A stretch of 46,863 nt of DNA from Alphaproteobacteria bacterium (GTDB lineage Bacteria > Pseudomonadota > Alphaproteobacteria > SMXQ01), in contig WHSO01000021.1 in assembly GCA_009380075.1 (NCBI GenBank), forward strand, positions 1-46,863, read 5' to 3'. Position numbers and translations under genes: made by a program. Positions 1,350 through 40,316 of the stretch are shown piece by piece. Every line of letters begins with the position of its first letter. Within the stretch, counting starts at the first letter, position 1. The notes below the pieces were generated by a model. The model was not told the DNA's origin. It made no database searches and worked only from the letters and a program-made list of their open reading frames with translations.

Positions 1350-2411
1350 ATGATCATGCGCAAACCGTTGAAAGCGTTGTCTTACGGCCTCGTCCTGGGG
1401 GCCATGTGCGTACCCGCGGCGGGTGCGGCGGATTACTTCAAGGGCAAGACGGTGACCATCACCGTCGGTTCCAGCGCCGGCGGCGGTTACGACGGCTACG
1501 CCCGTTTCCTCGGGCGCCATTGGGGGCGACTGATTCCAGGCAACCCCAGCTTCATCGTCAAGAACATGCCCGGCGCCGGCAGCCTCAAGGCGACCAACCA
1601 TATCTACAGCGTCGCGGCGAAGGACGGCACCCAGGTCGGCGCCGTCCAGAACGGCATCATCTTCGAGCCCCTGTTCAAGGTCATGGGCAGCGGCAACGAC
1701 GCCAAGTTCGACGCGACGAAGCTGAGCTGGATCGGCGCCGTCACCAAGGAAACCGCCGTCATGGTCGTGTGGCACGCGACGCCGTTCAAGTCCGTGGCCG
1801 ACGTGCGCAAGGCCGCCAAGGTGCGGACCGGCGCTTCGGGACCGACCACCAGCTACGGCGTCTATCCGCGCCTGATGAATGCCACCATGGGCACAAATAT
1901 CCAGGTCGTCATGGGCTACAGCGGCACCTCGGACATCACGCTGGCGCTGGAACGCGGCGAGATCGAGGCTATGACCGGCTGGGATTTTTCATCGGTCGCG
2001 AGCCGCAAGGGCCAGTGGCTGAAGGACAAGAAGATACGCATCCTGGTCCAGTTCGCCAAGAAGCGCCACCCGCAGATGCCCGACGTGCCGCTGGCGAGCG
2101 AGCTGACCACCAGCAAGCTCAACCGCGACGTGCTCGAGCTCATCGCCGCACGCCAGGAGATCGGCCGCCCCTATATCGCACCGCCGGGGGTGCCGGCGGA
2201 GGCGATCACGCCGCTCCGCACGTCGTTTATGGCGATGATGAAGGATCCGACGTTCCTCGCGGACGCCAAGAAGAGCCGGATCGAGATCATGCCGTCCGAC
2301 CATAAGGAGGCTCTCACCTCGGTCAAGGCCGCCTTCGCCGCGTCGCCCGATGTGGTCGCCAGGGCGCGCAGTATCCTGTTCGTCAAGAAGGCGAAAAAGA
2401 AGAAGAAATAA
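1350..2411 (+). CDS. TctC/Bug-type periplasmic binding protein (tripartite tricarboxylate family), copy 1
   Basis: A 353-residue exported solute-binding protein. A signal peptide covers about residues 1-27 (MIMRKPLKAL then a hydrophobic core ending AAGAA). The start of the mature protein, DYFKGKTVTITVGSSAGGGY, then IPGNPSFIVKNMPGAGSLKA, matches the ligand-loop region of the Bug/TctC family, which captures carboxylates for TctAB permeases. An AGGGAG ribosome site precedes the ATG; the second Met (position 3) is an alternative start. The last residues are KKAKKKKK, an odd lysine tail. No tctA or tctB gene lies in the window, so it is an orphan receptor that either serves a distant permease or has a sensing role. 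It is divergent from the SDR gene with 178 bases between them. Confidence 0.85.
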   Translation: MIMRKPLKALSYGLVLGAMCVPAAGAADYFKGKTVTITVGSSAGGGYDGYARFLGRHWGRLIPGNPSFIVKNMPGAGSLKATNHIYSVAAKDGTQVGAVQNGIIFEPLFKVMGSGNDAKFDATKLSWIGAVTKETAVMVVWHATPFKSVADVRKAAKVRTGASGPTTSYGVYPRLMNATMGTNIQVVMGYSGTSDITLALERGEIEAMTGWDFSSVASRKGQWLKDKKIRILVQFAKKRHPQMPDVPLASELTTSKLNRDVLELIAARQEIGRPYIAPPGVPAEAITPLRTSFMAMMKDPTFLADAKKSRIEIMPSDHKEALTSVKAAFAASPDVVARARSILFVKKAKKKKK

Positions 2412-6854: not shown

Positions 6855-7706
6855 TCAGGCCGGGACGGGCTTTTCCCCCTGCGTCGCGAAGCGGCGGAGC
6901 AGGCGGCGCTCGGCCGGATCGAAATCGGTGCGGGCATGGGCGGTCGAGCGGTTGTCCCAGATCAGCAGGTCGCCGGGCCGCCACTTGTGGACGTAGATGA
7001 ATTCGGGGCTTTCGATCAGGGTGAAAAGCCGTTCCAGCAGGGCATCGGATTCCTTCTCCGGCAGGTCCTCGATGGCAAAGGTCATCAATCGGCTCAGGAA
7101 CAGCGCCTTGCGCCCCGTCTCGGGGACGATGCGGACGGCCGGGTGGCTGTAGCTCTTGAGGGCGGTGTTGTCGCGCCGCAATGTGGTGCCGTGCAGAAAT
7201 CCCTGGAGTGCGTTGCGTCCCGCCAGCAGCCGCCGGGTGTCGCCGTCGAGGGCGTCATAGGCCGCGGTAGTTGAGGCGAACATGGTGTCGCCGCCGGCCT
7301 TCGGCACTTCGATGGCATAGAGCACGGTCGCCCGCGACGGCGTCTCGACATAGGACATGTCGGAATGGAAATGCATCTCCCCGTCCGGCAGGGAGCCGAT
7401 GGGCTTGCCGTTCTCGCGGATGTTGGACACCAGCATGGTGTAGCCGTCGTAGGAATCGGCCGCGTCGCGCTTTGATTCGTTTCGCAGTTCCTTGGGGCGG
7501 GGTCGCTCGATCAACTCGCCGAACAGACGGGCGATGGTGACCTGCCGGTGTTCGTCGAGGTCCTGGCCACGAACGACGATGACCCCAAAATCGAGCCAGG
7601 CGCGGACGAGTGCGTCGGCGTCTGCGGAGGCGAGCGGGCAGGAAAGGTCGACGCCGGAAATCTCGGCGCCGATGTGGCGGGTGAGGGGGGTGACGGCGAG
7701 GGGCAT
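6855..7706 (-). CDS. TauD/TfdA family Fe(II)/2-oxoglutarate dioxygenase, copy 1
   Basis: A 283-residue enzyme. The ATG at 7704-7706 is chosen from the AGGAAG just upstream and because MPLAVTPLTRHIGAEISGVD is the usual family start. The iron-binding HxD is in MHFHSDMSY, the distal His is in STAHARTDF, and the 2-oxoglutarate-binding Arg is in RRLLRRFA. The family uses Fe(II), O2 and 2-oxoglutarate to hydroxylate substrates such as taurine, sulfonates, carnitine precursors or aryloxyacetates. It begins 8 bases after the stop of a homologous gene and is translated in tandem with it. The substrate is not predictable. Confidence 0.88.
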   Translation of the reverse strand: MPLAVTPLTRHIGAEISGVDLSCPLASADADALVRAWLDFGVIVVRGQDLDEHRQVTIARLFGELIERPRPKELRNESKRDAADSYDGYTMLVSNIRENGKPIGSLPDGEMHFHSDMSYVETPSRATVLYAIEVPKAGGDTMFASTTAAYDALDGDTRRLLAGRNALQGFLHGTTLRRDNTALKSYSHPAVRIVPETGRKALFLSRLMTFAIEDLPEKESDALLERLFTLIESPEFIYVHKWRPGDLLIWDNRSTAHARTDFDPAERRLLRRFATQGEKPVPA

Positions 7707-7714
7707 GGGTCTTC

Positions 7715-8566
7715 CTAGAAAGGTCGGGTACCTTGAATGGTCAGGCGCTTCATGAGCCGCGTTTCCGTGGGCGGAAAGTCGCGCCGGGCATGGGCAAGGC
7801 AGCGATTGTCCCACAGCAGCACGTCCCCCGCCCGCCAGCGGTGCTCGTAGATGAAGGCCGGGGTCTCGATATGGTCGAACAGGATCGCGAGTATATCCCG
7901 ACTCTCATCAGGGGGCAGTCCGACAATCTCCTGGGTCATCAGGCGATTGACGTAGAGCGCCTTGCGCCCGGTGACCGGGTGGGCGCGCACGACGGGGTGG
8001 ACGCATCGGGCGACGTCGTCGGGGTTGGTCTTGCGTTGTTCGTTGTCGGTCGCGCGAGTGCTGTTGTAGGTGAAGGCGTGCAGTGCCTTCCGCCCGTCGA
8101 TGCGCGACTTGAGCCCGGCGGGCAGCGCGTCGTAGGCGGCATACATGTTGGCGAAGGCGGTTTCGCCGCCGTGGGTGGTGGGCGTAATGCAGTGCAGCAT
8201 CGTCGCCGCGAGCGGTTCCTCGACGTAGATGCCGTCGGAATGGAATTCGATGTCGCCTTCGGGAAGCGTGCCGATATAGGCCCCGTTTTCCTGGATGTTG
8301 GTGACCAGCATGATGTAGGGATTGCGGCCGCCTTCCGTGGGTACCTTGTCGGCGAAGCGCGACCATGGGGCGAGGGGGCCGAAACGGGCGCCGAAAGCTA
8401 CTTGCTGGTCCTCGTCGATATGCTGGTCGCGCAGCAGGATCAGCGCCGATTTATGCCAGGCGGACTCGATCGCGGCGAAGTCGGCATCGTCGATCCCGGC
8501 GGCGATATCGGCGCCGCCGATTTCGGCACCGAGCGCAGGCGACAGCGGTGTGGCGGTGATAGGCAC
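7715..8566 (-). CDS. TauD/TfdA family Fe(II)/2-oxoglutarate dioxygenase, copy 2
   Basis: A 283-residue paralogue of the following gene, starting at a GTG (complement at 8564-8566) with GGGAGGAG close upstream. The iron motif is in IEFHSDGIY, the distal His in CLAHARRDF and the cosubstrate Arg in TRLMKR. Shared block HPVVRAHPVTGRKALYVNRL matches the sister gene closely, so the pair probably arose by tandem duplication; the substrate-facing loops differ (for example GPLAPWSRF here against GELIERPRP in the sister). Two active sites with different pockets in one operon suggest two steps or two related substrates (inference). Confidence 0.88.
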   Translation of the reverse strand: MPITATPLSPALGAEIGGADIAAGIDDADFAAIESAWHKSALILLRDQHIDEDQQVAFGARFGPLAPWSRFADKVPTEGGRNPYIMLVTNIQENGAYIGTLPEGDIEFHSDGIYVEEPLAATMLHCITPTTHGGETAFANMYAAYDALPAGLKSRIDGRKALHAFTYNSTRATDNEQRKTNPDDVARCVHPVVRAHPVTGRKALYVNRLMTQEIVGLPPDESRDILAILFDHIETPAFIYEHRWRAGDVLLWDNRCLAHARRDFPPTETRLMKRLTIQGTRPF

Positions 8567-10298: not shown

Positions 10299-10862
10299 TC
10301 AGTCCGGGAAGGAGTCTCCGCCGTTATCCATGATGGTTTCGTCGTCCGCGCGGGGCGGGAACAGCTCACGGGTGGCCTCGACCACGAGGGCGCGAAACGC
10401 CGGATCGCTGATCCCGTTGATGGCGCCAGCGCGGGCGACGACGTAGGAATCGAGGCGGTCGCCGAAACACCATGCCGCCTGGAGAGTCGTCCCGTCACCC
10501 GGCGCAGCGGCAAGGGTGCCGTCGTCGCAAATCTTGGTCGGCGCGAGCGTCGTGTTGAACGCGAGCACGACCTTCAGGTTCTTCTCGGCGCTGGGACCAG
10601 GGCTGGTCGTGAAGTTGGTGGTGCCCCCGGCGTTCTGGCCATGCATGCTTTCGGTCACCGCGCGCGCGAAGCTCTGTGCGTCGGCGCCGAACGTGCTTCC
10701 CAGAATTTCGACCTTCGTGTCGCGGTTCTGATGATAGGCCGTGAAATTGTAGAAATCGTATGCCGGCTCGAGCTGTGAGGTCACGCTGACTCCGTTCGGC
10801 GCGCAGGCACCGGCAAGGCCGAGGACGAACGCTGTACGGACGGCAATACCGATTCGTGTCAT
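10299..10862 (-). CDS. Unrecognised exported lipoprotein, tandem family copy C
   Basis: A 187-residue protein starting at 10862 behind GAGGAGAAGGA. The N-terminus MTRIGIAVRTAFVLGLAGAC ends in a lipobox (LAGAC), so it is probably a lipoprotein. I do not recognise the family. It shares with the two upstream genes: YDFYNFTAYHQNRDTKVEI, then FARAVTESM, then TNFTTSPGPSAEKN, a first Cys (KIC), a second Cys in AAWC, and a final FRALVVEATRELFP block. The two shared Cys outside the lipobox could form a disulfide. The acidic end (DDETIMDNGGDSFPD) is unique to this copy. It is 52 bases after copy B; the three form one transcription unit downstream of parE. No function is proposed. Confidence 0.75.
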   Translation of the reverse strand: MTRIGIAVRTAFVLGLAGACAPNGVSVTSQLEPAYDFYNFTAYHQNRDTKVEILGSTFGADAQSFARAVTESMHGQNAGGTTNFTTSPGPSAEKNLKVVLAFNTTLAPTKICDDGTLAAAPGDGTTLQAAWCFGDRLDSYVVARAGAINGISDPAFRALVVEATRELFPPRADDETIMDNGGDSFPD

Positions 10863-10914
10863 GGGTTCCTTCTCCTCTCTCTCGCAATGCGCGGCGGACC
10901 GCTGCATTCGCCGA

Positions 10915-11484
10915 TTAGCGCATGATCCCCAGCCGCAATCCGCGGTCACGGTCATTATCGCGGTTTTCGTCCCGGCGCGGAAACAACTCCGCCGTGACCT
11001 GGGCGACCATGGTACGGAAGCGTGGATCCTCGATCGACGTCACCGGCGTGACGTAGGCGGTGACATCCGAATCGGCGCGGTCGCTCCAGCACCAGGCGGC
11101 GCGTAGTATGGTGATGCCGCCTTGCCCGGTCGGGGTGAAGCCCTTGGCTTGGCACATGCCGAGCCCCTCCGGCGACGAATTGAACGCCAGCACGACACGG
11201 AAATTCTTTTCGGCGCTGGGGCCCGGCGTGGTTGTGAAGTTGCTCTGCACGCTGGAATTCGGCCGGTTCATGGCGGCGGTCACGGCGTGGGCGAAACGCC
11301 CGGCGTCAAGGCCCAGCGTGTTGCCGTGAATCTCCACCAGTGTGTCGCGGTTGTAGTGATATTTGGTGAAGTTGTAGTAGTCGTAGGACGAACGATATTG
11401 CGACGTCAGGCGCGGCGCGTCCGTGGAGCAGCCCATGACCGTTGCAAGGACAACGGCCGCAGCGAGCAGGGATTTCTTCGTCAT
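10915..11484 (-). CDS. Unrecognised exported lipoprotein, tandem family copy B
   Basis: A 189-residue protein starting MTKKSLLAAAVVLATVMGCS, a lipoprotein signal with a slightly unusual lipobox (VMGC). The mature part has YDYYNFTKYHYNRDTLVEI, FAHAVTAAMN, SNFTTTPGPSAEKN, Cys pair in GMCQAKG and RAAWCWSD, and FRTMVAQVTAELFP, all aligned with its neighbours. It is closest to copy C. The C-terminus is highly charged (RRDENRDNDRDRG). The gene lies 93 bases after copy A and 52 before copy C on the same strand. Family and function are not recognised; the PGPSA block looks like a turn or binding loop but that is only a guess. Confidence 0.75.
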   Translation of the reverse strand: MTKKSLLAAAVVLATVMGCSTDAPRLTSQYRSSYDYYNFTKYHYNRDTLVEIHGNTLGLDAGRFAHAVTAAMNRPNSSVQSNFTTTPGPSAEKNFRVVLAFNSSPEGLGMCQAKGFTPTGQGGITILRAAWCWSDRADSDVTAYVTPVTSIEDPRFRTMVAQVTAELFPRRDENRDNDRDRGLRLGIMR

Positions 11485-11577
11485 GACGGGTCTCCTGACA
11501 TTCCGGCGATTCCGGATGGACGCGGGATCGTGAAGCCTAGGGGAAAACCGCCCGAACGTCCGATGAACGGCACAGCG

Positions 11578-12156
11578 TCATTCGCCGTTATTGGGCTCGC
11601 TCGGCAGATGATGGTTGTCCGTGGGGAACAGTTCCGTCGCGGTCTCCTGCACCAGGGCGCGGAACCCTGTGTCGGCGATGCCGCTCGCTGCACCGAGGTA
11701 CCCGGTTGCAAAAGAATGGCCGCTGGTACCGGGACACCAGGCCGCATCGAGCCGCACGGCGCCACCGCGGGATTTTGCCGGCTCGAACGTCTCCATGCGG
11801 CAGATGTCGCCTCTGGAGCGGACGTTGAACAGGAGGACGAGGCGCGCCGTCTTGTCCGCGCTCGGTCCCGGCGTCGTGGTGAAGTTGGTGACGGCGCCCC
11901 GACGTTTGTTCGGGATCATTTTGGTCACCGCCTCGGCGAAGGCTTCGACGCCCATGCCGAAGGGATCCCCCTTAATGACGACGCGCGCGTCGCGGTCGCG
12001 CAAATAGAGGTCGAAGTCCTGGGGGTCGTAGGCCGTTTCGATGTCACCGACGATGCGCGGTGTCGCGGCTTGCGAGGACCTGCCGCCTGACACTGCGGCG
12101 GTAAAGACCAGTCCAACGACCAACGGACCGGCGATGGCGGGGAGAAACCTGATCAT
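11578..12156 (-). CDS. Unrecognised exported protein, tandem family copy A
   Basis: A 192-residue protein, the first and most divergent of three paralogues. GGAG lies eight bases before the ATG at 12154-12156. The signal peptide (MIRFLPAIAGPLVVGLVFTA, cleavage perhaps near SSQA-A) has no lipobox Cys, unlike the other two copies, so this one is probably free in the periplasm or secreted. Shared blocks: YDPQDFDLYLRDRDARVVI, FAEAVTKMI, TNFTTTPGPSADK, Cys pair in DICRMET and AAWCPGT, FRALVQETATELFP. It begins 155 bases after the stop of parE. Role unknown. Confidence 0.72.
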   Translation of the reverse strand: MIRFLPAIAGPLVVGLVFTAAVSGGRSSQAATPRIVGDIETAYDPQDFDLYLRDRDARVVIKGDPFGMGVEAFAEAVTKMIPNKRRGAVTNFTTTPGPSADKTARLVLLFNVRSRGDICRMETFEPAKSRGGAVRLDAAWCPGTSGHSFATGYLGAASGIADTGFRALVQETATELFPTDNHHLPSEPNNGE

Positions 12157-14494: not shown

Positions 14495-15907
14495 TCAGAC
14501 CGAGTAGTACATCGCGAACTCGATCGGGTGCGGTGCGGTCTCAAAGGCCACGACTTCGGCCCACCGGAGGTCGCAATAGGCCTTGATCTGATCTTCGCTG
14601 AAGACATCGCCCTTGAGCAGGAAGTCCTTGTCCGCCCACAGTGAGTCGAGCGCCTCGCGCAGAGAGCCGCACACCGTCGGCACGTTGACCAATTCTTCGG
14701 GTGGCAGATCATAGAGGTCCTTGTCCATGGCCTCGCCCGGATCGATCTTGTTCTGGATGCCGTCGAGCCCCGCCATCAGCATGGCCGCGAAGGCGAGGTA
14801 GGGATTCGCCGACGGGTCGGGGAAGCGGACCTCGACGCGCTTGCCCTTGGGGCTGGCGGCATAGGGGATGCGGCACGAGGCGGAGCGGTTGCGCGCCGAA
14901 TAGGCGAGCAGCACCGGCGCCTCGAACCCCGGCACCAGGCGCTTGTAGCTGTTGGTGGTGGGGTTGGTGAAGGCGTTGATGGCCTTGGCGTGCTTGATGA
15001 TGCCGCCGATGTAATGCAGGCAGGTCTCCGACAGGTCGGCGTAGCCGGAGCCGGCGAAGACGTTCTTGTCGCCCTTCCAGATCGACTGGTGACAATGCAT
15101 GCCCGAGCCGTTGTCGCCGAACACCGGCTTCGGCATGAAGGTCGCGGTCTTGCCGTAGGAATGGGCGACCATATGGACGACGTACTTGTAGATCTGCATC
15201 TCATCGGCCATGCGCAGCAGCGAGCCGAAGCGCGAGCCGAGCTCGTTCTGGCTGGGAGCCACCTCGTGATGGTGCTTCTCCATATTGAGACCCATTTCGG
15301 CCATGACGGTGGTCATCTCGGCGCGCAGATCGGTCATCGAATCGACCGGCGGCACCGGGAAATAGCCGCCCTTGATGGCCGGGCGGTGACCGGTGTTGCC
15401 TTCGTCGAATTCGTCGCCGGAGACCCAGGGGCCTTCATCGCTGTCGATCTTGTAGAAGCAGTGCTCCATCGAGCTCTTGAAGCGCACGCTGTCGAACACG
15501 AAGAATTCCGCTTCCGGGCCGAAATAGGCGGTGTCGCCGATTCCGGTCGAGGCGAGATAAGCCTCGGCCAGCTTGGCTGTCGACCGCGGATCGCGCCCGT
15601 AGGGCTGTCCCGTCGACGGCTCCAGGACGTCGCAGAACAGGATCAGCTGGGGCTGCGCCGTGAACGGGTCCATGACCGCCGTGGCCGGGTCCGGCATCAG
15701 GGTCATGTCGGATTCATTGATCGCTTTCCAGCCGGCGATGGACGAACCGTCGAACATAATCCCTTCGGCGAAGATGTCTTCATTGATGGTCGCGACGGTC
15801 TGTGCCGTATGCTGCCACTTGCCTTTCGGATCGGTGAACCGGAAATCAACGTACTTGACGTCGTTGTCCTTGATCATCTGAAGGACTTTTTTGACTTCGT
15901 CGGCCAT
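14495..15907 (-). CDS. glnA: Type I glutamine synthetase
   Basis: A 470-residue GSI enzyme, which makes glutamine from glutamate, ammonia and ATP. The ATG at 15905-15907 is preferred over the GTG two codons upstream because AGGGAAG is 8 bases from the ATG but only 2 from the GTG. Motifs: [43 protein letters not shown], and near residue 395 [10 protein letters not shown] containing the Tyr that is adenylylated by GlnE when nitrogen is plentiful. It is 87 bases after glnB and co-transcribed with it, the usual alphaproteobacterial arrangement, and ends at a strong terminator. Confidence 0.96.
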
Positions 15908-15994
15908 TGTCACAACTTCCCTTTTTTTGTCTCGTCGTTGGCGGATCAGGCCCGGCCGGCCTGACGCGGGGCGTGGCCGGGAAACTGCATTAAT

Positions 15995-23517: not shown

Positions 23518-24387
23518 TCAGAACGTGTTGCCCGACTTGACGTAGTGCTCCGCGATCTCGCGGCCGGTCGCCTTCCACACGTGCTCGTGCCGGTTGATGT
23601 AGGCGAGCGCCCGGTCCACCGCCCGGATGCGGTAGGCGGGGCCGGCGACGAAGGGGTGCAGACCGATGGGCAGGACCATGCCCGTTTCCGAGCCCTCCTC
23701 GTAGAGCGTGTCGAAGGCGTCCTTGATCATCTGCTCGAACTCCGCCGGCGAATAGTGCATGCGGTTGATGGCGCCGTTGTCGTGGGGGTGCTCGCCGTAG
23801 GGCATCGACACGATCTTCTTGCCGCCGACAGTCATCATGTAGGGCTGGTCGTCGTTGATCCAGTCGGCGCAATAGAGCAACCCTTCCGCCACGAGGTGAT
23901 CGAGCGTCTGCCACGTCTCGTGCATGCCGGGGCCCATCCAGCCGACGGGACGGCTGCCGGTCGCCTTCTCGATCCGGTCGATGGACCGGCGGATGACGTC
24001 GCGCTCCGTCGTCGGATCGATCCTGTGCATGGGATGCGAATTGGATTCGCCGTGGGCCATGAACTCCCAGCCGGCGTCGCGCGCGGCGTCGATGATCTCG
24101 GGATGGGCGTCGCAGATGCCGGCGTTGGTGTTGGCGGTGACCGGAAACCCGTGCTTGCGGAACAGCTTCAACAGGCGCCAGAAACCCACCCGGTTGCCGT
24201 AGTCGCGCTTGCTCCAGCCGACCACGTCGGGCGTATGGCCGGTGCCGCGCGGGATCGGCTCATCGAGCGGGAAGTATTCGATGTTGAGGATGATCCACAC
24301 CGCCACCCGCGCGCCGCCGGGCCAGGTGATCTTCGGCCGTCGGGGCAGGGGCACGTAGGCGAAGGGTCCGTAGGGCGCGGGCTTCAA
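23518..24387 (-). CDS. Polysaccharide deacetylase (NodB-fold) family protein
   Basis: A 289-residue protein of the NodB-homology hydrolase fold, in the branch that includes PuuE-type allantoinase-like proteins: VAVWIILNIEYFPLDEP, then DYGNRVGFWRLLKLFRKHGF, GWEFMAHGESNSHPMH with metal-site His pair, GWMGPGMHETWQTLDHL and LPIGLHPFVAG. No signal peptide, so it is probably cytosolic and acts on a small amide or ureide rather than on cell-wall glycan (inference). The first metal Asp of the NodB motif appears replaced (NIEYF), as in the PuuE-like branch. Divergent from the amidohydrolase gene with 175 bases between. Confidence 0.82.
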   Translation of the reverse strand: MKPAPYGPFAYVPLPRRPKITWPGGARVAVWIILNIEYFPLDEPIPRGTGHTPDVVGWSKRDYGNRVGFWRLLKLFRKHGFPVTANTNAGICDAHPEIIDAARDAGWEFMAHGESNSHPMHRIDPTTERDVIRRSIDRIEKATGSRPVGWMGPGMHETWQTLDHLVAEGLLYCADWINDDQPYMMTVGGKKIVSMPYGEHPHDNGAINRMHYSPAEFEQMIKDAFDTLYEEGSETGMVLPIGLHPFVAGPAYRIRAVDRALAYINRHEHVWKATGREIAEHYVKSGNTF

Positions 24388-25675: not shown

Positions 25676-28600
25676 CTAATGAAAGTCATGCGAGGGCACG
25701 GCGATGGGCTCACCGCCCTCGTCCAGTGAATCGAGCAGTCCCGACAGGTCGTAGAGCCGTTCGGCAATGACATGGGTCACGCGGTGCGGGGGCGTGCCCT
25801 CGTGCTCGGCCCGGCCGGCGACGCCGACCAGCCGCGCGCCCATCACCTCGCGCCGGTAGCGCTCGAAAGTCTTCGGCCAGACGACGATATTGGCGATAGC
25901 GTCCTCGTCCTCGACGGTCATGAAGATGACGCCGCTCGCCGTGCCGGGTCGCTGGCGCACCAGCACCAGGCCGGCGAGGCGGATCCAGCCGCGGTGCGGG
26001 CTTGCCGTGAGCTCGTGGCAGGGACGGAAGCCGAGGGCGTCGAGGCGCGGGCGGAGGAGACGTACCGGATGGTCGCGCAGGCTGAGGCGCAGCATGCGGT
26101 AATCCTCGGCCACTGCCTCGCCGCGGCCGAGGACGGGCAGGGGTGGCACCGGTTCCGAGGGCTCAATCCCGGGGCCGCCGTTGCTGCGCCGGACCGCGGC
26201 AGCGGCGAACAGCGGCAGGGGGGCATCGTCGTCCAGCCCCGTCACTGCCCACAGCGCCGGGCGGCGCGAGAGCATTGAGTTGAAGGCGTCCGCCCGGGCG
26301 AGGCGAGCGAGCACGGCCTTGGCGAGACGGGTCCGCGCGGCGAGGTCGTCGACGTCGCGGAACGGCCCGTCCAGCGCCCGCGCCGCGACGAGGCTCTCCG
26401 TGGCGTCCTCGCTCATGCCCTTGATCTGGCGGAGGCCGAGGCGGAGCGCCTTCCGTGAACCGGTCTCCGGCTCCCTTGCCGATTCATCCACCGCCTCCTC
26501 GAGGGTGCAATCCCAGTGGCTGGCGTTGACGTCCACCGGCCGCATCTCGACGCCGTGCTCGCGCGCGTCGCGCACGATCTGGGCCGGGGCGTAGAAGCCC
26601 ATTGGCTGGCTGTTGAGCAGCGCCGCGGCGAAGACGTCGGGGTAATGGCACTTGACCCAGGCCGAGGCATAGACCAGGAGCGCGAAGCTCGCCGCGTGGC
26701 TCTCGGGAAAGCCGTAGTCGCCGAAGCCCTCGATCTGACGGAAGCAGCGCTCGGCGAAGTCGCGCTCGTAGCCGCGCGCCACCATGCCTTCGACCATCTT
26801 GTCGCGGAAGGCGGAGACATGGCCGGTGTGCCGGAAGGTGGCCATGGCGCGGCGCAGGCGGTCGGCGTCTTCCGGCGTGAAGCCGGCGGCGACGATGGCG
26901 ATCCTCATCGCCTGTTCCTGGAACAGGGGCACGCCGAAGGTCTTGTCCAGCACGCTCCGCAGTTCGTCCGACGGGAAGCTGACCACCTCGCGGCCGTCGC
27001 GGCGGCGCAGGTAGGGATGCACCATGTCGCCCTGGATCGGACCCGGGCGCACGATCGCCACCTCGATGACGAGGTCGTAGAAATTGCGGGGCCTGAGGCG
27101 CGGCAGCATCGACATCTGCGCCCGGCTTTCGACCTGGAACACGCCGATGGAATCGGCCCGGGACAGCATGTCGTAGACGGCTGGGTCCTCGGCCGGCAGG
27201 GTGGCGAGGTCGAAGCGGCGGCCGTGGTGGTCGGCGATCAGGTCGAAGGCCCGGCGCAGGCAGCTCAGCATGCCGAGCGCGAGGACGTCGATCTTGAGGA
27301 TGTTCAGCGCGTCGAGGTCCTCCTTGTCCCATTCGATGACGGTGCGGTCGTCCATGGCCGCGTTCTCGATCGGCACCACCTCGTCGAGCCGTCCGCGGGT
27401 GATGACGAATCCGCCGACGTGCTGGGACAGGTGGCGGGGGAAGCCGATCAGCTCGCGCGTCAGCGCCATCAACTGGGCGACGGGCAGGGCGGCGTGGTCG
27501 AGGCCGGCCTCCCGCGTCCGGCCGGTATCGAGCCCGCGGGAGGAGCGCCCCCAGACGCCACGGACCAGCGCCGAGGCCGTGTCCTCGGACAGGCCCAGAA
27601 CCTTGCCGACCTCGCGCACCGCCGAGCGGGTGCGATAGCGGATGACCGTGGCGGCGAGGCCGGCACGTTCGCGCCCGTAGCGGGCGTAGATGTGCTGGAT
27701 CACCTCCTCGCGGCGCTCGTGCTCGAAATCGACGTCGATGTCGGGCGGTTCGCCGCGGGCGGCGGAGACGAAGCGCTCGAACAGGAGATCCAGGCGCTCC
27801 GGATCCACCGCGGTGACGCCAAGGCAGTAGCACACCGCCGAATTGGCCGCCGAACCCCGGCCCTGGCACAGGATGCCGCGCCCGCGGGCAAAGCCGACGA
27901 TGTCGTGGACGGTGAGGAAATAGGGGGCATAACCGAGATCACGGATGATGCGGAGCTCATGGGCTATCTGGGCGCGCACCTTGGCCGGCACGCCTTTCGG
28001 GTAACGCGCGCGCCCCCCCTTGAAGGCGAGGCGGGCGAGCTGGCCGTCGGGGCTCCGTCCCGCCGGCACCGGCTCGCGCGGGTATTCGTAGGCGAGGTGG
28101 TCGAGGGAGAAGGCGAGGCGTGCCGCGATCTTCCCGCTCGCCGCCAGCGCGTCGGGGCGGTCGGCGAACAGTCGCGCCATCGCCTCCGGCGCCTTGAGAT
28201 GGCGCTCGCCGTTGGCGGCGAGGCGATAGCCGGCAGTGGCCAGCGTGCATTTCTCGCGGATGCAGGTGAGCACGTCGAGGAGGGGGCGGCGTTCGGGGAC
28301 ATGCATGAGCACGTCGCCGGCGGCGACGAGGCCGGTACCGCCGGCCTCGGCCAAGTGGGCGGCGCGGGTCCGGCGCTCGCCGTCGCGGCCGTCGCAGCGG
28401 GGGCTCGTCATCACATGCAGAGATACATCAAATATAGTCTTTAATAGACTGATTTTACTTATGAATATGTCGTCATTTTCCGGGGAATCGTCGGGCGGGA
28501 CGACTATCCCGGCGAAGCCGCCTTCGAGCCCGGCGAGGTCGTCGGTGGTGAGGATGCAGTTCCCCTTTTCCGCTCGCCGCTTGCCCACGGTCAGCACCCG

Positions 28601-28921
28601 GCACAGCCGCCCCCAGGCGGCGCGGTCGGCGGGATAGGCCAGCACCTCGATCCCGTCCACGGTGACCAGACGACAGCCGGGGACGAGGCGGATGCCCGCC
28701 GCCTTCGCCGCGACATGGGCGCGCACCACGCCGGCGACGGTGTTGCGGTCGGCGATCCCGATCGCCCGGTAGCCGAGCGCCGCCGCGCGCTCGACCAGTT
28801 CGTGCGGATGCGACGCCCCGCGCAGGAAGCTGAAGTTGCTGGTGACGGCGAGCTCGACGTCAGGCGCCGCGGACATGACCGGCACGGTGGTCGCGGCTAT
28901 AGGCGTCACGGTTGCCGTCAT
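25676..28921 (-). CDS. dnaE2: Error-prone DNA polymerase III alpha subunit DnaE2
   Basis: A 1081-residue C-family polymerase of the damage-tolerance type. PHP domain at about residues 20-230 (LAVTSNFSFLRGASHPHELVERA; GDVLMHVPERRPLLDVLTCI); palm with PDIDVDFEHERREEVIQHIY (two catalytic Asp) and the third Asp in LNILKIDVLALGML; thumb/fingers; C-terminal OB-like region. The end VPSHDFH is typical of DnaE2. It copies past lesions with ImuA and ImuB. The start overlaps the imuB stop by four bases (ATGA). Codons 147-169 lie in an AT-rich patch (about 30% GC, 28414-28481) with no similarity in composition to the rest of the gene. Confidence 0.93.
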   Translation of the reverse strand: MTATVTPIAATTVPVMSAAPDVELAVTSNFSFLRGASHPHELVERAAALGYRAIGIADRNTVAGVVRAHVAAKAAGIRLVPGCRLVTVDGIEVLAYPADRAAWGRLCRVLTVGKRRAEKGNCILTTDDLAGLEGGFAGIVVPPDDSPENDDIFISKISLLKTIFDVSLHVMTSPRCDGRDGERRTRAAHLAEAGGTGLVAAGDVLMHVPERRPLLDVLTCIREKCTLATAGYRLAANGERHLKAPEAMARLFADRPDALAASGKIAARLAFSLDHLAYEYPREPVPAGRSPDGQLARLAFKGGRARYPKGVPAKVRAQIAHELRIIRDLGYAPYFLTVHDIVGFARGRGILCQGRGSAANSAVCYCLGVTAVDPERLDLLFERFVSAARGEPPDIDVDFEHERREEVIQHIYARYGRERAGLAATVIRYRTRSAVREVGKVLGLSEDTASALVRGVWGRSSRGLDTGRTREAGLDHAALPVAQLMALTRELIGFPRHLSQHVGGFVITRGRLDEVVPIENAAMDDRTVIEWDKEDLDALNILKIDVLALGMLSCLRRAFDLIADHHGRRFDLATLPAEDPAVYDMLSRADSIGVFQVESRAQMSMLPRLRPRNFYDLVIEVAIVRPGPIQGDMVHPYLRRRDGREVVSFPSDELRSVLDKTFGVPLFQEQAMRIAIVAAGFTPEDADRLRRAMATFRHTGHVSAFRDKMVEGMVARGYERDFAERCFRQIEGFGDYGFPESHAASFALLVYASAWVKCHYPDVFAAALLNSQPMGFYAPAQIVRDAREHGVEMRPVDVNASHWDCTLEEAVDESAREPETGSRKALRLGLRQIKGMSEDATESLVAARALDGPFRDVDDLAARTRLAKAVLARLARADAFNSMLSRRPALWAVTGLDDDAPLPLFAAAAVRRSNGGPGIEPSEPVPPLPVLGRGEAVAEDYRMLRLSLRDHPVRLLRPRLDALGFRPCHELTASPHRGWIRLAGLVLVRQRPGTASGVIFMTVEDEDAIANIVVWPKTFERYRREVMGARLVGVAGRAEHEGTPPHRVTHVIAERLYDLSGLLDSLDEGGEPIAVPSHDFH

Positions 28922-30582
28922 GGAAAAACCCCATGTAGGAACCAGTGCTCGGGCGTGCCCCCGTGAGGAAGGCCGGCGCGGTAGAGCCAGAAGCGCGCGC
29001 CCGCGGTGTCCTCGACGCGCCAGTAGTCGCGCACCGTCTCATCGAATCCGGGCGGCACGCCGATGCCGTCCGCCTGCCAACCGGGCAGCGTCCACCAGTC
29101 GAGCGCGATGCGTTCGGGCCCCTCGGCGCGGGCGACGCGGTGATGGGCGCCGCGCCAGCGGAACCACGCGGGCGGGCCTTCCGGTTCCCGGGAGGCCGCC
29201 GTCACCGGCACCGGGGACGCCAGCAGGCGAAGCGGCCGGGCCGGTCGGCGGGGACCGGGCCCGGCTTCGGCATCCAGCGGGGGCAACGGTGCCGCGTCGG
29301 GGCTGCCGATGCCGGTACGTTCGAAGCTCTGGGCGCGTTCGGGCAGGTGGTTGGGGCGCAACGCGAGGCGGCCGACGCGGTCGCCACCGAGGCGGGCGGC
29401 CAGTTTCTCGACCAGCGGCGCGAGCTGGCGCTCCGTTTCGGCATCGGATGGGGCACCGGTAATGGCTTCCGGACCAAGCTGTCCCTGAACGGCGCGCAGC
29501 GGCTCGACGGTTGGGGCCTCGAGGACGAAGCCGTCGGCGCCGGGGCCGAGGTCGAGGCGACCGAGCTGGAAACCGAGCAGCCTGGCGAGGGTCTTGGCCT
29601 CGGCAACCGGCCGCGCCGTGCCGACGATGACGCGGGCGCGCCGCCCGTCGGCGCGGAAGGCGGAGAAGGCGAGCCGCCGGGCGCCCAGGCCTTCGCGCGC
29701 CAGCATCGGCGCGAGCCCGGCGACGAGACGGCCCATGATGCGGGCGACCGCTTGCGTATCGTGGACCGGTTCGGGCGCGGTGAAACGGGTGAGGTGGCGG
29801 GCCCGGGGCAGGGCCGGGCTGATCGGTTCGAACATCTGGCCGAGCGCGGCGTCGAGCCGGCCGAGCAGTTCAGGCGGAAAGCGCCGGGCAAGACCAGCGC
29901 GTCCGGCTGCGTCGGCGGCGAAGGGATAGAGATCGCCGATGCGCCGCAGGCCGAGGCCGCCGAGCCCCTCCACCATTGCCGCATCGAGGCGCAGCGCCGC
30001 GACGGGCAGGGGGGCGAGGGCGTCCGCTTCCCCGCCCGCGGGCGCGATCACGGGGCCGGTCGCGGTGGACCGTGCGGAATATCCGTTCCAGCCGTAGCGG
30101 GCGAGCGCATAGGCTGCCCCCGGCGTGCCGGCGAGGCCGGCATGGGCGGTAAAGCCGAGGCGGGCGAGATCGACCACGACGGTGCGGCACAGGGACTCTT
30201 CGCCGCCGAACAGGTGGGCGCAGCCGGTGATGTCGAGCCAGATGCCGGGGCCGTATGTGCCGAGCGTTGCCGTCCACGGCGAATAGCGCCGGCACCAGGC
30301 GGCGAGGCGGCGCAGCGTGCGGGCATCGGCACATTCGTCGACGGGGGCGGTGACGAGGCCGGCGGCGATGGCGCGCGCATCGGCGAGGGTCTGGCCGGGG
30401 ACGACGCCGGCCTGCCGGCCCGGCCGGTTGGCGGCGGCGATGAGCTGGCGGTTGCCCGCGGCAATCCACACCGCGAACGGCTGCGGCGCCGGCGCGGTCC
30501 CGGTTGCCCGGTGTTCGGCCTCAGGCCGCTCCGCGGGCAGATGCGGCAGCCACAGGGCGAGTATCCGCCGCGGCACCGGCAT
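28918..30582 (-). CDS. imuB: Y-family polymerase-like protein ImuB
   Basis: A 554-residue DinB-like protein that bridges DnaE2, ImuA and the sliding clamp in the SOS mutasome. The N-terminus PRRILALWLPHLPAERPE and GIWLDITGCAHLFGGE correspond to the Y-family palm, but the catalytic acidic residues are not kept, as is usual for ImuB. LARFGFTAH-like region and the helix-hairpin GLGGLGLRRIGDLYPF follow, then FRWRGAHHRVARAEGPERI and the C-terminal DYWRVEDTAGARFWLYR, a typical ending. The start is set at 30582; it overlaps the imuA 3' end by 62 bases, and its stop overlaps the dnaE2 start. Confidence 0.9.
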   Translation of the reverse strand: MPVPRRILALWLPHLPAERPEAEHRATGTAPAPQPFAVWIAAGNRQLIAAANRPGRQAGVVPGQTLADARAIAAGLVTAPVDECADARTLRRLAAWCRRYSPWTATLGTYGPGIWLDITGCAHLFGGEESLCRTVVVDLARLGFTAHAGLAGTPGAAYALARYGWNGYSARSTATGPVIAPAGGEADALAPLPVAALRLDAAMVEGLGGLGLRRIGDLYPFAADAAGRAGLARRFPPELLGRLDAALGQMFEPISPALPRARHLTRFTAPEPVHDTQAVARIMGRLVAGLAPMLAREGLGARRLAFSAFRADGRRARVIVGTARPVAEAKTLARLLGFQLGRLDLGPGADGFVLEAPTVEPLRAVQGQLGPEAITGAPSDAETERQLAPLVEKLAARLGGDRVGRLALRPNHLPERAQSFERTGIGSPDAAPLPPLDAEAGPGPRRPARPLRLLASPVPVTAASREPEGPPAWFRWRGAHHRVARAEGPERIALDWWTLPGWQADGIGVPPGFDETVRDYWRVEDTAGARFWLYRAGLPHGGTPEHWFLHGVFP

Positions 30583-31357
30583 CCTGACGATCGTTCCGCC
30601 CGTCATCGGCCTTGTCCATGTGATCGTTGTCGACGGGGAGGGGCACCGCCCCGTCGGACCCGCGCCAGAGCACGCGCCAGCGCCGGGGGAAGACGCCGGC
30701 CGCGCGCAGGAGCACGATTTCCCACGCGCCGCCCGGCGCGCCGGTGACACGCCAGCGGGTGGCGGCGGGACCGGCGACGGCGGCTTCGGGACGCAGCAGG
30801 ACGAGGGGGACGCCACTGGAGCGGGCGGCAAGCGCGAGGCGCCGGGCGGCGATGTCCGAGACTGCCGCGGCTTCGGCCAGCACGGCACCGAGGGCGGGCG
30901 TGGCGAGGCCTTCCTCCGCCGCCCACAGGGTTTCGCGCTCGAACGCCGTGTGCGCCAGCAGCAGGCGGCGGGGCCTGAGGCCGAAATCGGCGAGCGCCGG
31001 GGTGTAAGGCGTGGGTGCCCGCATGCTGCCCTGCACGTCGTCCTGGACGCACCACAGCCACGTCCGCCCGCGCACCATGCGCGCGACGATCCACAGCGCG
31101 AAGCCGAGCGCCGCGGCGCTGTCGTCGCCGGCGACGATGTCGTGCACCGCGCCGCGGGCGAGCCCGCCACCGGGCAGATGACGGTCGATGTCGTCGAGGC
31201 CGAGGGGGACGACCCGCGCTCCGCCATAGGCGTCCTCGACGAGGCTGCCGGCCTCGATGCGGTTGATGCGGGCGCGCAGCATGGCGAGCCGCCTTTCGGT
31301 GGTGCCGTGGGGCATGCCCCGCGTCGTCGTGCCCTGTGTCGTACTGGTTGCCGTCAT
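30521..31357 (-). CDS. imuA: SOS mutagenesis protein ImuA (RecA/SulA-like)
   Basis: About 278 residues. RecA-like core: LPGGGLARGAVHDIVAGDD, LWIVARMVRGRTWLWCVQDD, LLLAHTAFERETLWAAEEGL, GVPLVLLRP and TRWRVTGAPGG. ImuA links RecA filaments to ImuB and DnaE2 in damage-induced mutagenesis. The ATG at 31355-31357 follows CGGAGA; an in-frame ATG at 31382-31384 is too near the LexA box to leave room for a leader. The 3' end (residues 258 on) is translated in overlap with imuB. First gene of the cassette and preceded by a LexA site. Confidence 0.88.
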   Translation of the reverse strand: MTATSTTQGTTTRGMPHGTTERRLAMLRARINRIEAGSLVEDAYGGARVVPLGLDDIDRHLPGGGLARGAVHDIVAGDDSAAALGFALWIVARMVRGRTWLWCVQDDVQGSMRAPTPYTPALADFGLRPRRLLLAHTAFERETLWAAEEGLATPALGAVLAEAAAVSDIAARRLALAARSSGVPLVLLRPEAAVAGPAATRWRVTGAPGGAWEIVLLRAAGVFPRRWRVLWRGSDGAVPLPVDNDHMDKADDGRNDRQDAGAAADTRPVAAASARGAA

Positions 31358-37041: not shown

Positions 37042-38949
37042 ATGTCGTCCAGTGCATCGTCGCCTCGTGCCATCCATCAAGCCCTGGCGCCGGCTGTTGC
37101 CGCCGGTGTCGATACGGCGCGCCGATGGGCCCGGCAACTTGCCGCGCGCGTAGCGGGAGACCACCCGTCCGATCCGGTCGTTTCCGAACCCGGTGATCCT
37201 TCCGTATCGGTACCGCTGAATGCCTGGCGGGCCGCTGCCCGTCGCACCATGACGATCGTGGTTCTGTTTTCGGTGGTCGTGAACCTCCTGATGCTGACGC
37301 TGCCGATCTACCTGTTTCAGATATCCGACAGGGTCCTGACCAGCCGCAGTCTTGAGACGCTGGTGATGCTCACGGTACTGGCGCTCTGCTTCCTGGGTAT
37401 CCTCTCGATCCTCGACGTTCTCCGCCGGCAGATTCTCGGACGGCTTGCGGCAAAGCTGGAAGTGATGCTCGGCGGTCCCGTCCTGACCAGCATGATCAAC
37501 AGCGCGCGCGGTGGCGAAGGCGGCAACGTCCAGGCGCTGCGCAGCCTTCAACAGGTGCGCAATTTTATCCTGAGTCCCGTCATGCTCCTCCTCATCGACG
37601 TTCCGCTGACGCCGCTCTATCTTGGGGTCATATTCCTGATTCATGTCGATCTCGGCTTCATCGCCCTGGCCGCCGCCGTGCTGCTGTTCTCGATTGCGGT
37701 GCTCAATCAAAGGGCGACCGCCGGGTCGCTCAGCCGGGCGCACGCACATGCCGCTCGGGCGGATGCCGCTGCGGAATCGCTCGGCCGCAACGCGCAGGTT
37801 ATCAATGCGATGGGGATGCTGAAGGAAAGCATCCTTCATTGGGGCCGGCAGCAGGCACAATCGCTGACCGTTCAGAGTACCGCCCTGGATCGCAACTTCT
37901 GGATTACCGGGCTGTCGAAGTTCGTCCGCTACGTCACCCAGATCATCGTCCTCGGCTGCGGCGCCTATCTCGCGCTTCAGGGCGAGTTGACCGGTGGCAT
38001 GATGATCGCCGCCGCCATTATCGTCGGTCGCGCCCTTCAGCCGCTGGAAGGGCTGATCGAAGGCTGGCGCAGCTTCGTCCAGACGCGGGCCGCCTATGGG
38101 CGCGTCTGCAGCGCTGTCGAGATTCTGCGAAACGAACCGCGGAAGCTCCGCCTGCCGCGACCGAAGGGGCACCTTTCGGTCGAGCGCGTACTGTACCTTC
38201 CACCCGGTTCGAAGGAGCCCATTCTCAACGGTGTGGGCTTCATGATCGGGCCGGGCGAATCGCTCGCCATCGTGGGCCCCTCGGGCTCGGGCAAGTCGAC
38301 TCTCGCCCGGATCCTCGTGGGATGCATCGTGCCGACCGCGGGAAAGGTGCGCCTGGACGGCACGGAGCTCCGCAACTGGGACCGGCGCCAGTTCGGTGAA
38401 TACTCCGGGTACCTGCCCCAGGAAGTGGAGCTTTTTCCCGGCACAATCAGGCAGAACGTTTGCCGCATGCGCGACGACCTGCCCGATTCCAGCATCTACG
38501 AAGCGGCAGTGCTTACCGGAATTCACGACATGGTGTGCCAGTTGCCGAACGGGTATGAAACGATACTCGAACGTGGCGGGGCGCCCCTGTCGGGCGGGCA
38601 GAAGCAGCGCCTCGCGCTTGCGCGCGCCTTTTTCGGCAATCCCTCCCTCGTGGTGCTGGATGAGCCGAACTCCAATCTCGATGCCGCCGGGGAACAGGCT
38701 CTTACCGAGACACTCCAGCGTGCGAAGAAGCGGGGCGTAACAGTGGTCGTCGTGACCTTGAGGCCGGCGCTGCTGAACAACGTGGACAAGGTTCTGATCT
38801 TGCGCTCCGGTCGGATGGAGGCTTTCGGCCCGCCGGACGATGTGCTGCACCGCTTCGTGCGTGCCGGCGGCGAGAGGCCGCGTCCAGCGCGCGGGGAGGA
38901 GAGGGGCAGCGCAGATCATGCGTCGCACCCAACAAGGGCTGCAGAATGA
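37042..38949 (+). CDS. Type I secretion system permease/ATPase (PrtD-like)
   Basis: A 635-residue inner-membrane ABC exporter half-transporter; GAGGGGG precedes the ATG. After about 65 polar residues come the membrane domain (about 68-345) and the nucleotide-binding domain: Walker A GPSGSGKST at 412-420, Q-loop in YLPQEVELFPGTIRQN, signature LSGGQKQR at 516-523, Walker B LVVLDEPNSNLD with Glu541. The H-loop, normally a His-Arg-Pro here, reads TLRPALL with Leu573 in place of His. No N-terminal C39-like domain, so cargo is not expected to be trimmed by it. Its stop overlaps the membrane-fusion gene start (ATGA). It drives export of an unfolded cargo, likely one of the two proteins upstream. Confidence 0.92.
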   Translation: MSSSASSPRAIHQALAPAVAAGVDTARRWARQLAARVAGDHPSDPVVSEPGDPSVSVPLNAWRAAARRTMTIVVLFSVVVNLLMLTLPIYLFQISDRVLTSRSLETLVMLTVLALCFLGILSILDVLRRQILGRLAAKLEVMLGGPVLTSMINSARGGEGGNVQALRSLQQVRNFILSPVMLLLIDVPLTPLYLGVIFLIHVDLGFIALAAAVLLFSIAVLNQRATAGSLSRAHAHAARADAAAESLGRNAQVINAMGMLKESILHWGRQQAQSLTVQSTALDRNFWITGLSKFVRYVTQIIVLGCGAYLALQGELTGGMMIAAAIIVGRALQPLEGLIEGWRSFVQTRAAYGRVCSAVEILRNEPRKLRLPRPKGHLSVERVLYLPPGSKEPILNGVGFMIGPGESLAIVGPSGSGKSTLARILVGCIVPTAGKVRLDGTELRNWDRRQFGEYSGYLPQEVELFPGTIRQNVCRMRDDLPDSSIYEAAVLTGIHDMVCQLPNGYETILERGGAPLSGGQKQRLALARAFFGNPSLVVLDEPNSNLDAAGEQALTETLQRAKKRGVTVVVVTLRPALLNNVDKVLILRSGRMEAFGPPDDVLHRFVRAGGERPRPARGEERGSADHASHPTRAAE

Positions 38950-40316
38950 TGGCTGACCAGAGAGATGGATCGTGGCATCTCGGTGTGCCATTGAGCGCAA
39001 AGTGGCCGGTGATCGTCGGCTTGGCCATTCTCTTCGTCTGGGGTGGTGGTTTCGGGGTCTGGGCGGCGCTGGCTCCCTTGCACGGCGCGGTGGTCGCGCC
39101 GGGCACCTTCGTCGCCACGGGCCAGAACAAGCTCGTCCAGCATCTCGAGGGCGGCATCGTGCGCGAGATATTGGTGAGGGAGGGCGACCTGGTCGCCGCG
39201 GGACAGACGCTCGTACGCATGGACGAAACTTCGGCCCGGGCGAAGCTACGGCGACTCGTCCTCAAGAACTACCGCCTTGCGGCCATGAAGGCCCGGCTCG
39301 AAACCGAGATGGAGGGGCGGGACGAAATGGAAATCCCGCCCACGCTCGCGGCAAGGCAGGACGATCCGGAGGTCCGTGCCATCATCGCGCGACATCGCTC
39401 CGAACTGCGGGCCCGGAGGACGAGCCTTGCCACGGAGGAACTGGTCCTGGACAAGGAAATCGCCGGGATCAGGGAGAGCATTCAGGGCTATGAAGCCCAG
39501 GTCCGCTCCACGAAACAGCGCATCGCGATGTTCGCCGAGGAGCTGAAGGACAAGTCGGCGCTGCTCAAGAAACACCTGACCCGCAAGACGGAGGTTCTCG
39601 ATCTGCAGCGCGCCGAGGCGGGCCTGGTGGGCAATCTGGGTGAGCTGGTCGGCCGGATCGCGGATTCCCACCAGCGCATTGCACGGGCCAACCAGCACAT
39701 CGCGCATCTCAGGTCCGAGGCCGTGAGGGCGGCGATCGAGGAGTTGAGGCAGGTCGAGGCGGAGATCGACGACGTCCAGGAGCAGATTCATGCCGCGCAG
39801 GACGTGGTTGACCGTGCCGAGGTCCAGGCACCGACGCGGGGAATTGTCGTCCGGCTCCACTACCACACGCCTGGCGCCGTGGTCGCTCCAGGGGGGATGA
39901 TCGTGGAACTCCTGCCCGTGAACGATGAACTGATCATCGAGGCCCAGGTCAAGCCGAGCGACGTCACCCATGTCGCCATCGGGCAGGAGGCGTTGGTCCG
40001 GCTGTCGGCGCTCAACCGCCGCGTCACCCCGACGATTGCGGCAAACGTGATCTACCTGTCGGCCGACGCTCTGAGGGAACAGATGCCATCGATGGAACGC
40101 GGCGCAGGGTCGGCACGGGGGATGGGGACGCGGCAGGACTATTACGTCGTGCGCGTCCGGCTCGACGAAGCGGACGTGCTCGAACGCCTGGAGGCGTTCC
40201 AACCCACCCCCGGCATGCCCGCCGAGGTTTACATCAAGACGGGCGAACGGACTTTCTTCGAGTACGTCATGCGGCCGGTGTTCGACAGCTTCTCCCACGC
40301 CTTCCGCGAAAGCTGA
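38946..40316 (+). CDS. HlyD-family membrane fusion protein of type I secretion system
   Basis: A 456-residue periplasmic adaptor. One membrane helix at about residues 18-40 (WPVIVGLAILFVWGGGFGVW), a biotinyl-lipoyl-like start (VVAPGTFVATGQNKLVQHLE, then GGIVREILVREGDLVAAGQT), a long alpha-helical hairpin of about 180 residues rich in Glu, Arg and Leu, and the second lipoyl half (VQAPTRGIVVRLHYHTPGAV) followed by a beta-barrel region (ELLPVNDELIIEAQVKPSDV) and the typical ending PAEVYIKTGERTFFEYVMRP. It links the ATPase to a TolC-like outer-membrane channel; no tolC gene is in the window. Translation is coupled to the ATPase gene. Confidence 0.93.
   Translation: MMADQRDGSWHLGVPLSAKWPVIVGLAILFVWGGGFGVWAALAPLHGAVVAPGTFVATGQNKLVQHLEGGIVREILVREGDLVAAGQTLVRMDETSARAKLRRLVLKNYRLAAMKARLETEMEGRDEMEIPPTLAARQDDPEVRAIIARHRSELRARRTSLATEELVLDKEIAGIRESIQGYEAQVRSTKQRIAMFAEELKDKSALLKKHLTRKTEVLDLQRAEAGLVGNLGELVGRIADSHQRIARANQHIAHLRSEAVRAAIEELRQVEAEIDDVQEQIHAAQDVVDRAEVQAPTRGIVVRLHYHTPGAVVAPGGMIVELLPVNDELIIEAQVKPSDVTHVAIGQEALVRLSALNRRVTPTIAANVIYLSADALREQMPSMERGAGSARGMGTRQDYYVVRVRLDEADVLERLEAFQPTPGMPAEVYIKTGERTFFEYVMRPVFDSFSHAFRES

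Follow-up and report, generated by a model that had tools for sequence, protein, structure and literature searches.

A tandem triplet of paralogues from an unnamed alphaproteobacterial lipoprotein family with a predicted fold resembling PelC

A triplet of exported paralogues

Between a parE-type gene and a DEAD-box helicase gene on an alphaproteobacterial contig (the window, 46,863 nucleotides in its full length) lie three adjacent, similar genes, and they raise the question of whether they represent a real protein family and what such proteins might do in the cell envelope. A first-pass annotation had read them as ORFs of 187 to 192 residues from an unrecognised exported family. All three are present, arranged in tandem in the transcription order A, B, C with intergenic gaps of 93 and 52 bp (Table 1). 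Reading the DNA directly, we found a Shine-Dalgarno-like stretch ahead of each start. For gene C a good one, GGAGAAGGAACCC, precedes ATG 10862, the start that we preferred to the one at 10955 in the program-made ORF list. A promoter scan returned 0 promoters, and a terminator scan returned 3 terminator-like sites versus 1.8 expected, the sole minus-strand site lying inside gene B.

Table 1. Features of the window, with positions counted from its first nucleotide
Feature	Position	Strand	Remarks
TctC-type receptor	1350-2411		about 8 kb from the triplet; no link evident
TauD/TfdA-type dioxygenase genes, two in tandem	6855-7814 and 7715-8566	minus	ORFs overlap by 100 bp; downstream of the DEAD-box helicase gene
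DEAD-box RNA helicase, 502 aa	8652-10160	minus	downstream, 138 bp after C; conserved flank
Gene C	10299-10862	minus	187 aa lipoprotein; lipobox ..GLAGAC followed by A; Cys pair kept
Gene B	10915-11484	minus	189 aa lipoprotein; lipobox ..LATVMGC followed by S; Cys pair C111/C132
Gene A	11578-12156	minus	192 aa paralogue; signal peptide, no N-terminal Cys; Cys pair C119/C141 kept
parE-type topoisomerase subunit, 664 aa	12312-14306	minus	upstream, 155 bp before A; conserved flank
Glutamine synthetase (glnA)	14495-15913	minus	upstream of parE; in the block of many, not all, regions
Polysaccharide deacetylase	23518-24387	minus	lone, about 11 kb from the triplet and 9 kb beyond parE; no link evident
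DNA polymerase III alpha-type gene	25676-28921	minus	overlaps the end of the next gene
impB/mucB/samB-family gene	28918-31227	minus
ABC exporter gene, then HlyD-like gene	37042-40316	plus	about 25 kb from the triplet; no link evident

The three genes are paralogues within one unnamed alphaproteobacterial family, with C 46% and A 34% identical to B. Local alignment of the parts after residue 25 gave z scores of 45 (A-B), 50 (A-C) and 66 (B-C) against 500 shuffles, which rules out chance resemblance. A search of the whole genome (162 contigs, 97% complete) found exactly three copies, namely these. The motifs that the first-pass annotation had listed were all found in the three proteins: NFTT-P-PGPSA-[ED]-K, a Cys followed further on by AAWC, Y..RD, and a FR..V....ELFP block. 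It had also seen lipoboxes in two of the three, and this agrees with what we found at the N-termini of B (..TVMGC) and C (..LAGAC). The leader of A is hydrophobic and ends in SSQAA, it fails the lipobox pattern, and the first Cys of the protein is residue 119; its signal peptide looks like the signal peptidase I type. In enterobacteria, Ser or Ala at position +2 favours the outer membrane. Since that residue is Ser in B and Ala in C, not Asp, we predict both at the outer membrane, in its inner leaflet.

Range, conserved residues and duplication

We asked whether the family had been described before. Searches of Pfam, NCBIfam, PHROGs and PADLOC with A, B and C returned nothing above noise (one NCBIfam row at E 0.11 and one PHROG at E 0.27), and Pfam searches with 25 family members gave scattered noise only, the best being Prismane at E 0.0059 in 2 of the 25. 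Neither the three proteins nor the 25 members matched the Pfam models for PF03886, CsgG (PF03783), LptE (PF04390) or DUF4136 (PF13590), or contained an OmpA or other peptidoglycan-binding domain by Pfam. Searching PDB chain sequences with two family profiles at E up to 10 yielded 1 and 3 matches, none of them PelC, TraT or otherwise credible. Among the papers listed in literature searches, none was recognisably about the family, DalA and LppA having been considered by description only. The original description as unrecognised is thus borne out by four family libraries and by the PDB chain sequences, and the strong match to a described family that could have overturned it did not appear at the sequence level; what did appear was a PelC-type match of fold, described below.

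The family is widespread among relatives of the host. A single-protein query found it in 15 of 41 genomes (the host's own and relatives), and it occurs in all 11 genomes searched from the order, which belong to a single taxonomic family and include that of the host. With a profile of 25 members we detected it in at least 89 of 385 genomes sampled from the class, a lower bound set by the limited number of candidates scored per genome. In a phylum-wide sample, 7 of 299 genomes matched, all of them members of the same class, a result that no more than hints at a limit to that class. Sixteen named loci come from alphaproteobacterial or unassigned Proteobacteria/Pseudomonadota MAGs, one Rhodospirillales MAG and two Azospirillum, and an Azospirillum family protein used as query matched eight Azospirillum records in a plasmid collection. 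Viral origin was also considered and was rejected: for B, a pattern scan of IMG/VR and a search of phage records found no relatives, and no BFVD structure matched at E <= 0.001.

To find conserved positions we used an alignment of 96 distinct rows from loci L025 to L136 plus the window (E <= 1e-6, span of at least 120 model positions, shorter spans excluded). Both core cysteines are aligned in 94 rows. The other two rows, third copies in L034 and L037, are incomplete in the alignment, so that their column 132 in fact shows the first of the two Cys; their full frames keep both cysteines around insertions. The mature stretch holds exactly two Cys in 91 of the 96 rows. Three further rows have three or four, and the 2 incomplete rows were counted as having one. 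In these two copies (L037:807-1472, minus strand, and L034:2069-2785, plus strand) the insertions surround the first core Cys, and each copy sits in a three-copy array. As the two cysteines are the deepest feature of the family, they likely form a disulfide. Other well-kept positions are F101 (89 rows), Y34 (86), G54 (81), P169 (81), F83 (75) and P56 (74; Thr in B), and the deep signature consists of the Cys pair, F101, Y34, G54 and P169. The first-pass annotation had treated PGPSA and the Cys pair alike as conserved motifs; the Cys pair stands as a deep signature, whereas PGPSA is a local feature only, its residues being kept in 24 (G88), 20 (P89), 28 (S90) and 38 (A91) of the 96 rows.

An alternative use for the two cysteines, which are the most conserved positions of all, would be catalysis, in a periplasmic thiol-redox or other enzyme. 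We consider this quite improbable: there is no CxxC, the cysteines stand about 20 residues apart, and among the columns of charged residues, His or Ser, just R96 and D153 (65 rows each) have a single residue in 60 or more of 96 rows, leaving no catalytic-looking set. The Foldseek matches of the predicted B structure to beta-lactamase are weak and span only about 76 columns.

The coding sequences appear to be under purifying selection while evolving fairly fast, since simple Nei-Gojobori counts gave dN/dS of 0.08 to 0.63 in 8 of 10 pairs (rough in five of these eight, where dS exceeds 1, and saturated in the other two pairs). Together with the occurrence in every genome searched from the order and in at least 89 of those sampled from the class, this agrees with the earlier suggestion that the domain has a real function.

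Lipidation was assessed across the same 96 rows with a PS51257-like lipobox pattern. It fits 80 rows, with Asp at +2 in only 2 of the 80, and fails in 16, of which 6 still carry a Cys where one is expected and 10 lack any lipobox-like Cys. Lipidation is therefore not essential to the whole family. Copies without a lipobox are found in more than one lineage. Tandem arrays that pair a lipidated with a predicted soluble copy stand in the window and in L122 and L112, and these cases of a non-lipidated copy beside at least one lipidated copy occupy three separate parts of the tree. In L126 both copies lack a lipobox.

The tree places A, B and C within a clade of 11 rows (100/97), in which B groups with C and the single copy of a same-genus genome (99/84), and A branches off before the remaining ten rows on a long branch (99/76). 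In L122, L112 and L101 the tandem copies are mutual nearest neighbours with full support, and in L057 and L054 they are so less firmly. Because tandem pairs in separate loci group with each other, we conclude that duplication happened many times, as read from a tree whose bootstrap had not settled and which has many long branches. We also compared 59 regions from 58 genomes, hand-picked from hit lists and hence non-random, some of them ending at contig ends (L130, which repeats L082, was left out). In 14 of the 59 there were two or more matched copies or pieces, so the local amplification proposed from the window alone recurs elsewhere. One region, L118 (G166), contains four family-matching ORF pieces in a single parE-helicase interval, some of them fragmentary.

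Predicted fold compared with known lipoproteins

AlphaFold2 models of B and A were both built from the same 19 sequences and reached pLDDT 83.4 and pTM 0.77 for B, where 102 of the 189 residues scored at least 90, and pLDDT 82.1 and pTM 0.75 for A. In Foldseek searches of the PDB, PelC chains took ranks 1-18 and PelBC rank 19 for B (best E 1.6e-4, probability 1.00), and PelC or PelBC took ranks 1-15 for A (best E 9.2e-4, probability 1.00). VIA-align gave PelC a Z of 8.8 with both models (118 aligned at 3.7 A for B, 117 at 3.5 A for A). The kinds that follow score under 8, a range in which VIA itself cautions that a match may be a mere common arrangement: TraT at 7.9 (B) and 7.8 (A), PqiC (8q2d) at 7.5 and 7.3, and CsgG, the TolB N-domain, DUF330, DUF4136 and LptE at about 5-6, with the TolB N-domain at 5.4-6.2, DUF4136 at 5.6 (B) and 6.2 (A), and HpaA at 5.2. 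Chains of other sorts score in this range as well, among them a Parabacteroides PDZ protein (6.6 for B, 7.2 for A), FlgT (6.1, 6.0) and ribosome hibernation factors (up to 5.9, 6.0). Query TM values against PelC chains were 0.40-0.47 for B and 0.32-0.40 for A, and identity was 6-15% depending on the aligner. Since TM is moderate and identity this low, the likeness to PelC is one of fold only, between predicted and solved structures.

Profile comparison did not extend this likeness to sequence. We aligned the 96-row family by hhalign with PF03886 (20 proteins), CsgG (13 proteins) and LptE (20 proteins) alignments built from alphaproteobacterial genomes. The first gave 11 signal-peptide columns only, at probability 5.9, and the other two gave 0.1 and 0.2; a reversed family profile gave 0.1-0.2. 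PF03886, CsgG and LptE barely find one another (probability at most 6.3), and because three fold-related families hardly match one another the method is weak for very remote kinship. We regard the proteins as a separate family whose predicted fold is shared with the PqiC, CsgG and LptE families, no sequence homology having been shown by a comparison of this limited reach.

PelC, which serves Pel exopolysaccharide export (5t10, 5t11, 5t0z, 9h80), is the best structural match of both models. The likeness includes similar size, a predicted lipid anchor in B and C, and an alpha/beta topology that extends through almost all of the mature domain. Its lipidated N-terminal Cys has a counterpart in the predicted lipobox of B, C and 80 of the 96 rows, absent from A. 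PelC has a conserved C-terminal Trp; in the family no conserved Trp is seen, the top column (77) having it in 20 of 96 rows and any column after 145 in at most one. The near-invariant Cys pair, in turn, is a feature of the family, and Pfam scans of 30 window ORFs found no pel-type cluster, only the lone polysaccharide deacetylase gene beyond parE. We therefore do not file the family as PelC: the predicted lipid anchor is shared and the fold suggestive, but the sequence relation and the conserved Trp are missing. PelC is described as a twelve-membered ring that surrounds the stalk region of PelB, with a highly conserved Trp needed for assembly (PMC12141448).

PqiC, of the ABC_trans_aux family (PF03886, formerly DUF330; 8q2d, 8q2c, 2iqi), is likewise a small outer-membrane lipoprotein of related fold, described as an octameric toroid (PMC10897342). 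The present family differs from it in having neither a Pfam match nor profile homology, and no MCE-family gene is among the 30 window ORFs scanned with Pfam. CsgG, LptE, the TolB N-domain and DUF4136 belong to the same broad fold class; CsgG and LptE have no profile relation to the family, and the genome has its own CsgG-family and LptE genes elsewhere.

TraT (9fs5, 9fsm), the next-ranked kind of structure after PelC, is a surface-exclusion lipoprotein with a related core, and with the HpaA match it suggests another arrangement, in which the proteins would be surface-exposed or shielding lipoproteins on the outer face, where tandem duplication would diversify them, perhaps as a defence from phages or to serve adhesion. 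Frequent duplication and the dN/dS of 0.59 and 0.63 in the two lowest-dS pairs would fit such a life. We give it a low probability, if the highest among the alternatives. TraT gave no sequence match (A, B and C have no Pfam match of any kind), its chains are larger (225-226 residues) and it is plasmid-borne in the two solved entries, whereas the present family is kept across all the genomes searched from the order. Its conserved core and Cys pair are unlike hypervariable surface loops, non-lipidated copies recur, and B, the one protein queried, found nothing in phage records.

The TolB scores invite a different reading, of a periplasmic regulator of envelope machinery akin to the TolB N-domain or to an LpoB-like activator and not a transport or ring subunit. 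The Alphaproteobacteria do have other lineage-specific envelope lipoproteins, such as DalA and PapS (PMC10470522, PMC11369160), and PapS differs in having an OmpA-like domain. TolB scores below PelC, TraT and PqiC, and Pfam found no peptidoglycan-binding domain of any sort in the proteins scanned, so we think this role rather unlikely.

Gene neighbourhood and proposed role

The flanks of the triplet recur in the 59 hand-picked regions: 30 have parE upstream and the DEAD-box helicase gene downstream, 4 parE only, 7 the helicase gene only and 18 neither. In none of the 59 is parE or the helicase gene on the opposite strand, and the order parE-family-helicase is kept in Azospirillum brasilense Sp7, with one family copy in the stretch analysed (L196). 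This linkage could mean that the family has a joint role with ParE (topoisomerase IV) or with the helicase, and proximity speaks for it, since parE lies upstream in 34 of the 59 regions (no more than 331 bp away in 29 of them) and the helicase gene downstream in 37. We nevertheless judge it very improbable, as the family products are exported while ParE and the helicase are cytoplasmic. We also queried 15 genomes without a family match for parE and obtained 14 regions (G035 had a weaker, gyrase-like match only). The helicase gene lay in the same co-directional block as parE in 8 of the 14, up to 6 kb apart, and ORFs of at least 110 aa in those eight gaps, read by eye, included no evident diverged family copy. 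Because the block exists without the family, it is old, the family may have no more than a passive place in it, and position says little on function.

Other contexts were no more informative. Among ten neighbours scanned in contexts away from parE no shared partner was evident, most being metabolic or unmatched, and the window ORFs directly beside the triplet include no transporter, barrel, polysaccharide, secretion or lipid-transport gene. A DUF3576 gene adjoins the family in L113 (5721-6281, by Pfam) and L119 (6313-6927, by clustering) and lies 3 kb from a family copy in L131 (9933-10463, by clustering); in L119 and L131 it is followed by a large gene of one common cluster. Elsewhere in the window, the two overlapping genes at 25676-31227 have a layout that we take to resemble an imuB-dnaE2 mutagenesis cassette.

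Our preferred reading, to which we assign a probability of about 0.5, is that the three products are periplasm-facing outer-membrane accessory lipoproteins, with A as a soluble paralogue. A lipid anchor would hold B and C in the inner leaflet of the outer membrane, and a disulfide between the two cysteines would pin the domain. In an accessory role like that of PelC and PqiC, the domain may dock either on a partner in the outer membrane or on its own copies, and A would carry this domain as a paralogue released into the periplasm. The family proteins are perhaps oligomeric, with formation of rings suggested by analogy with those two proteins. A bolder version, in our estimate unlikely, is that the disulfide-pinned family forms toroids on the periplasmic face as the class's own counterpart of the PelC and PqiC collars, and that tandem lineages combine lipidated and soluble paralogues (here A, B and C) into mixed rings or collars for export or lipid transport.

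Altogether, the family is real, lacks a name and falls into a fold class that can be recognised; lipoproteins of this sort are common, and in that respect it is ordinary. We think it deserves a name, since every genome searched from the order has it, its Cys pair is strict and it has split repeatedly into lipidated and soluble forms. A family profile could name hypothetical proteins, such as the one in Azospirillum thermophilum annotated 'hypothetical protein'. The analysis yields a testable fold and localisation, and mixed collars could be studied to advantage in the recurrent tandem sets of lipidated and soluble copies. For the Alphaproteobacteria, whose outer membrane has been described only thinly, it brings to light an envelope lipoprotein family that is unnamed and vertically kept.
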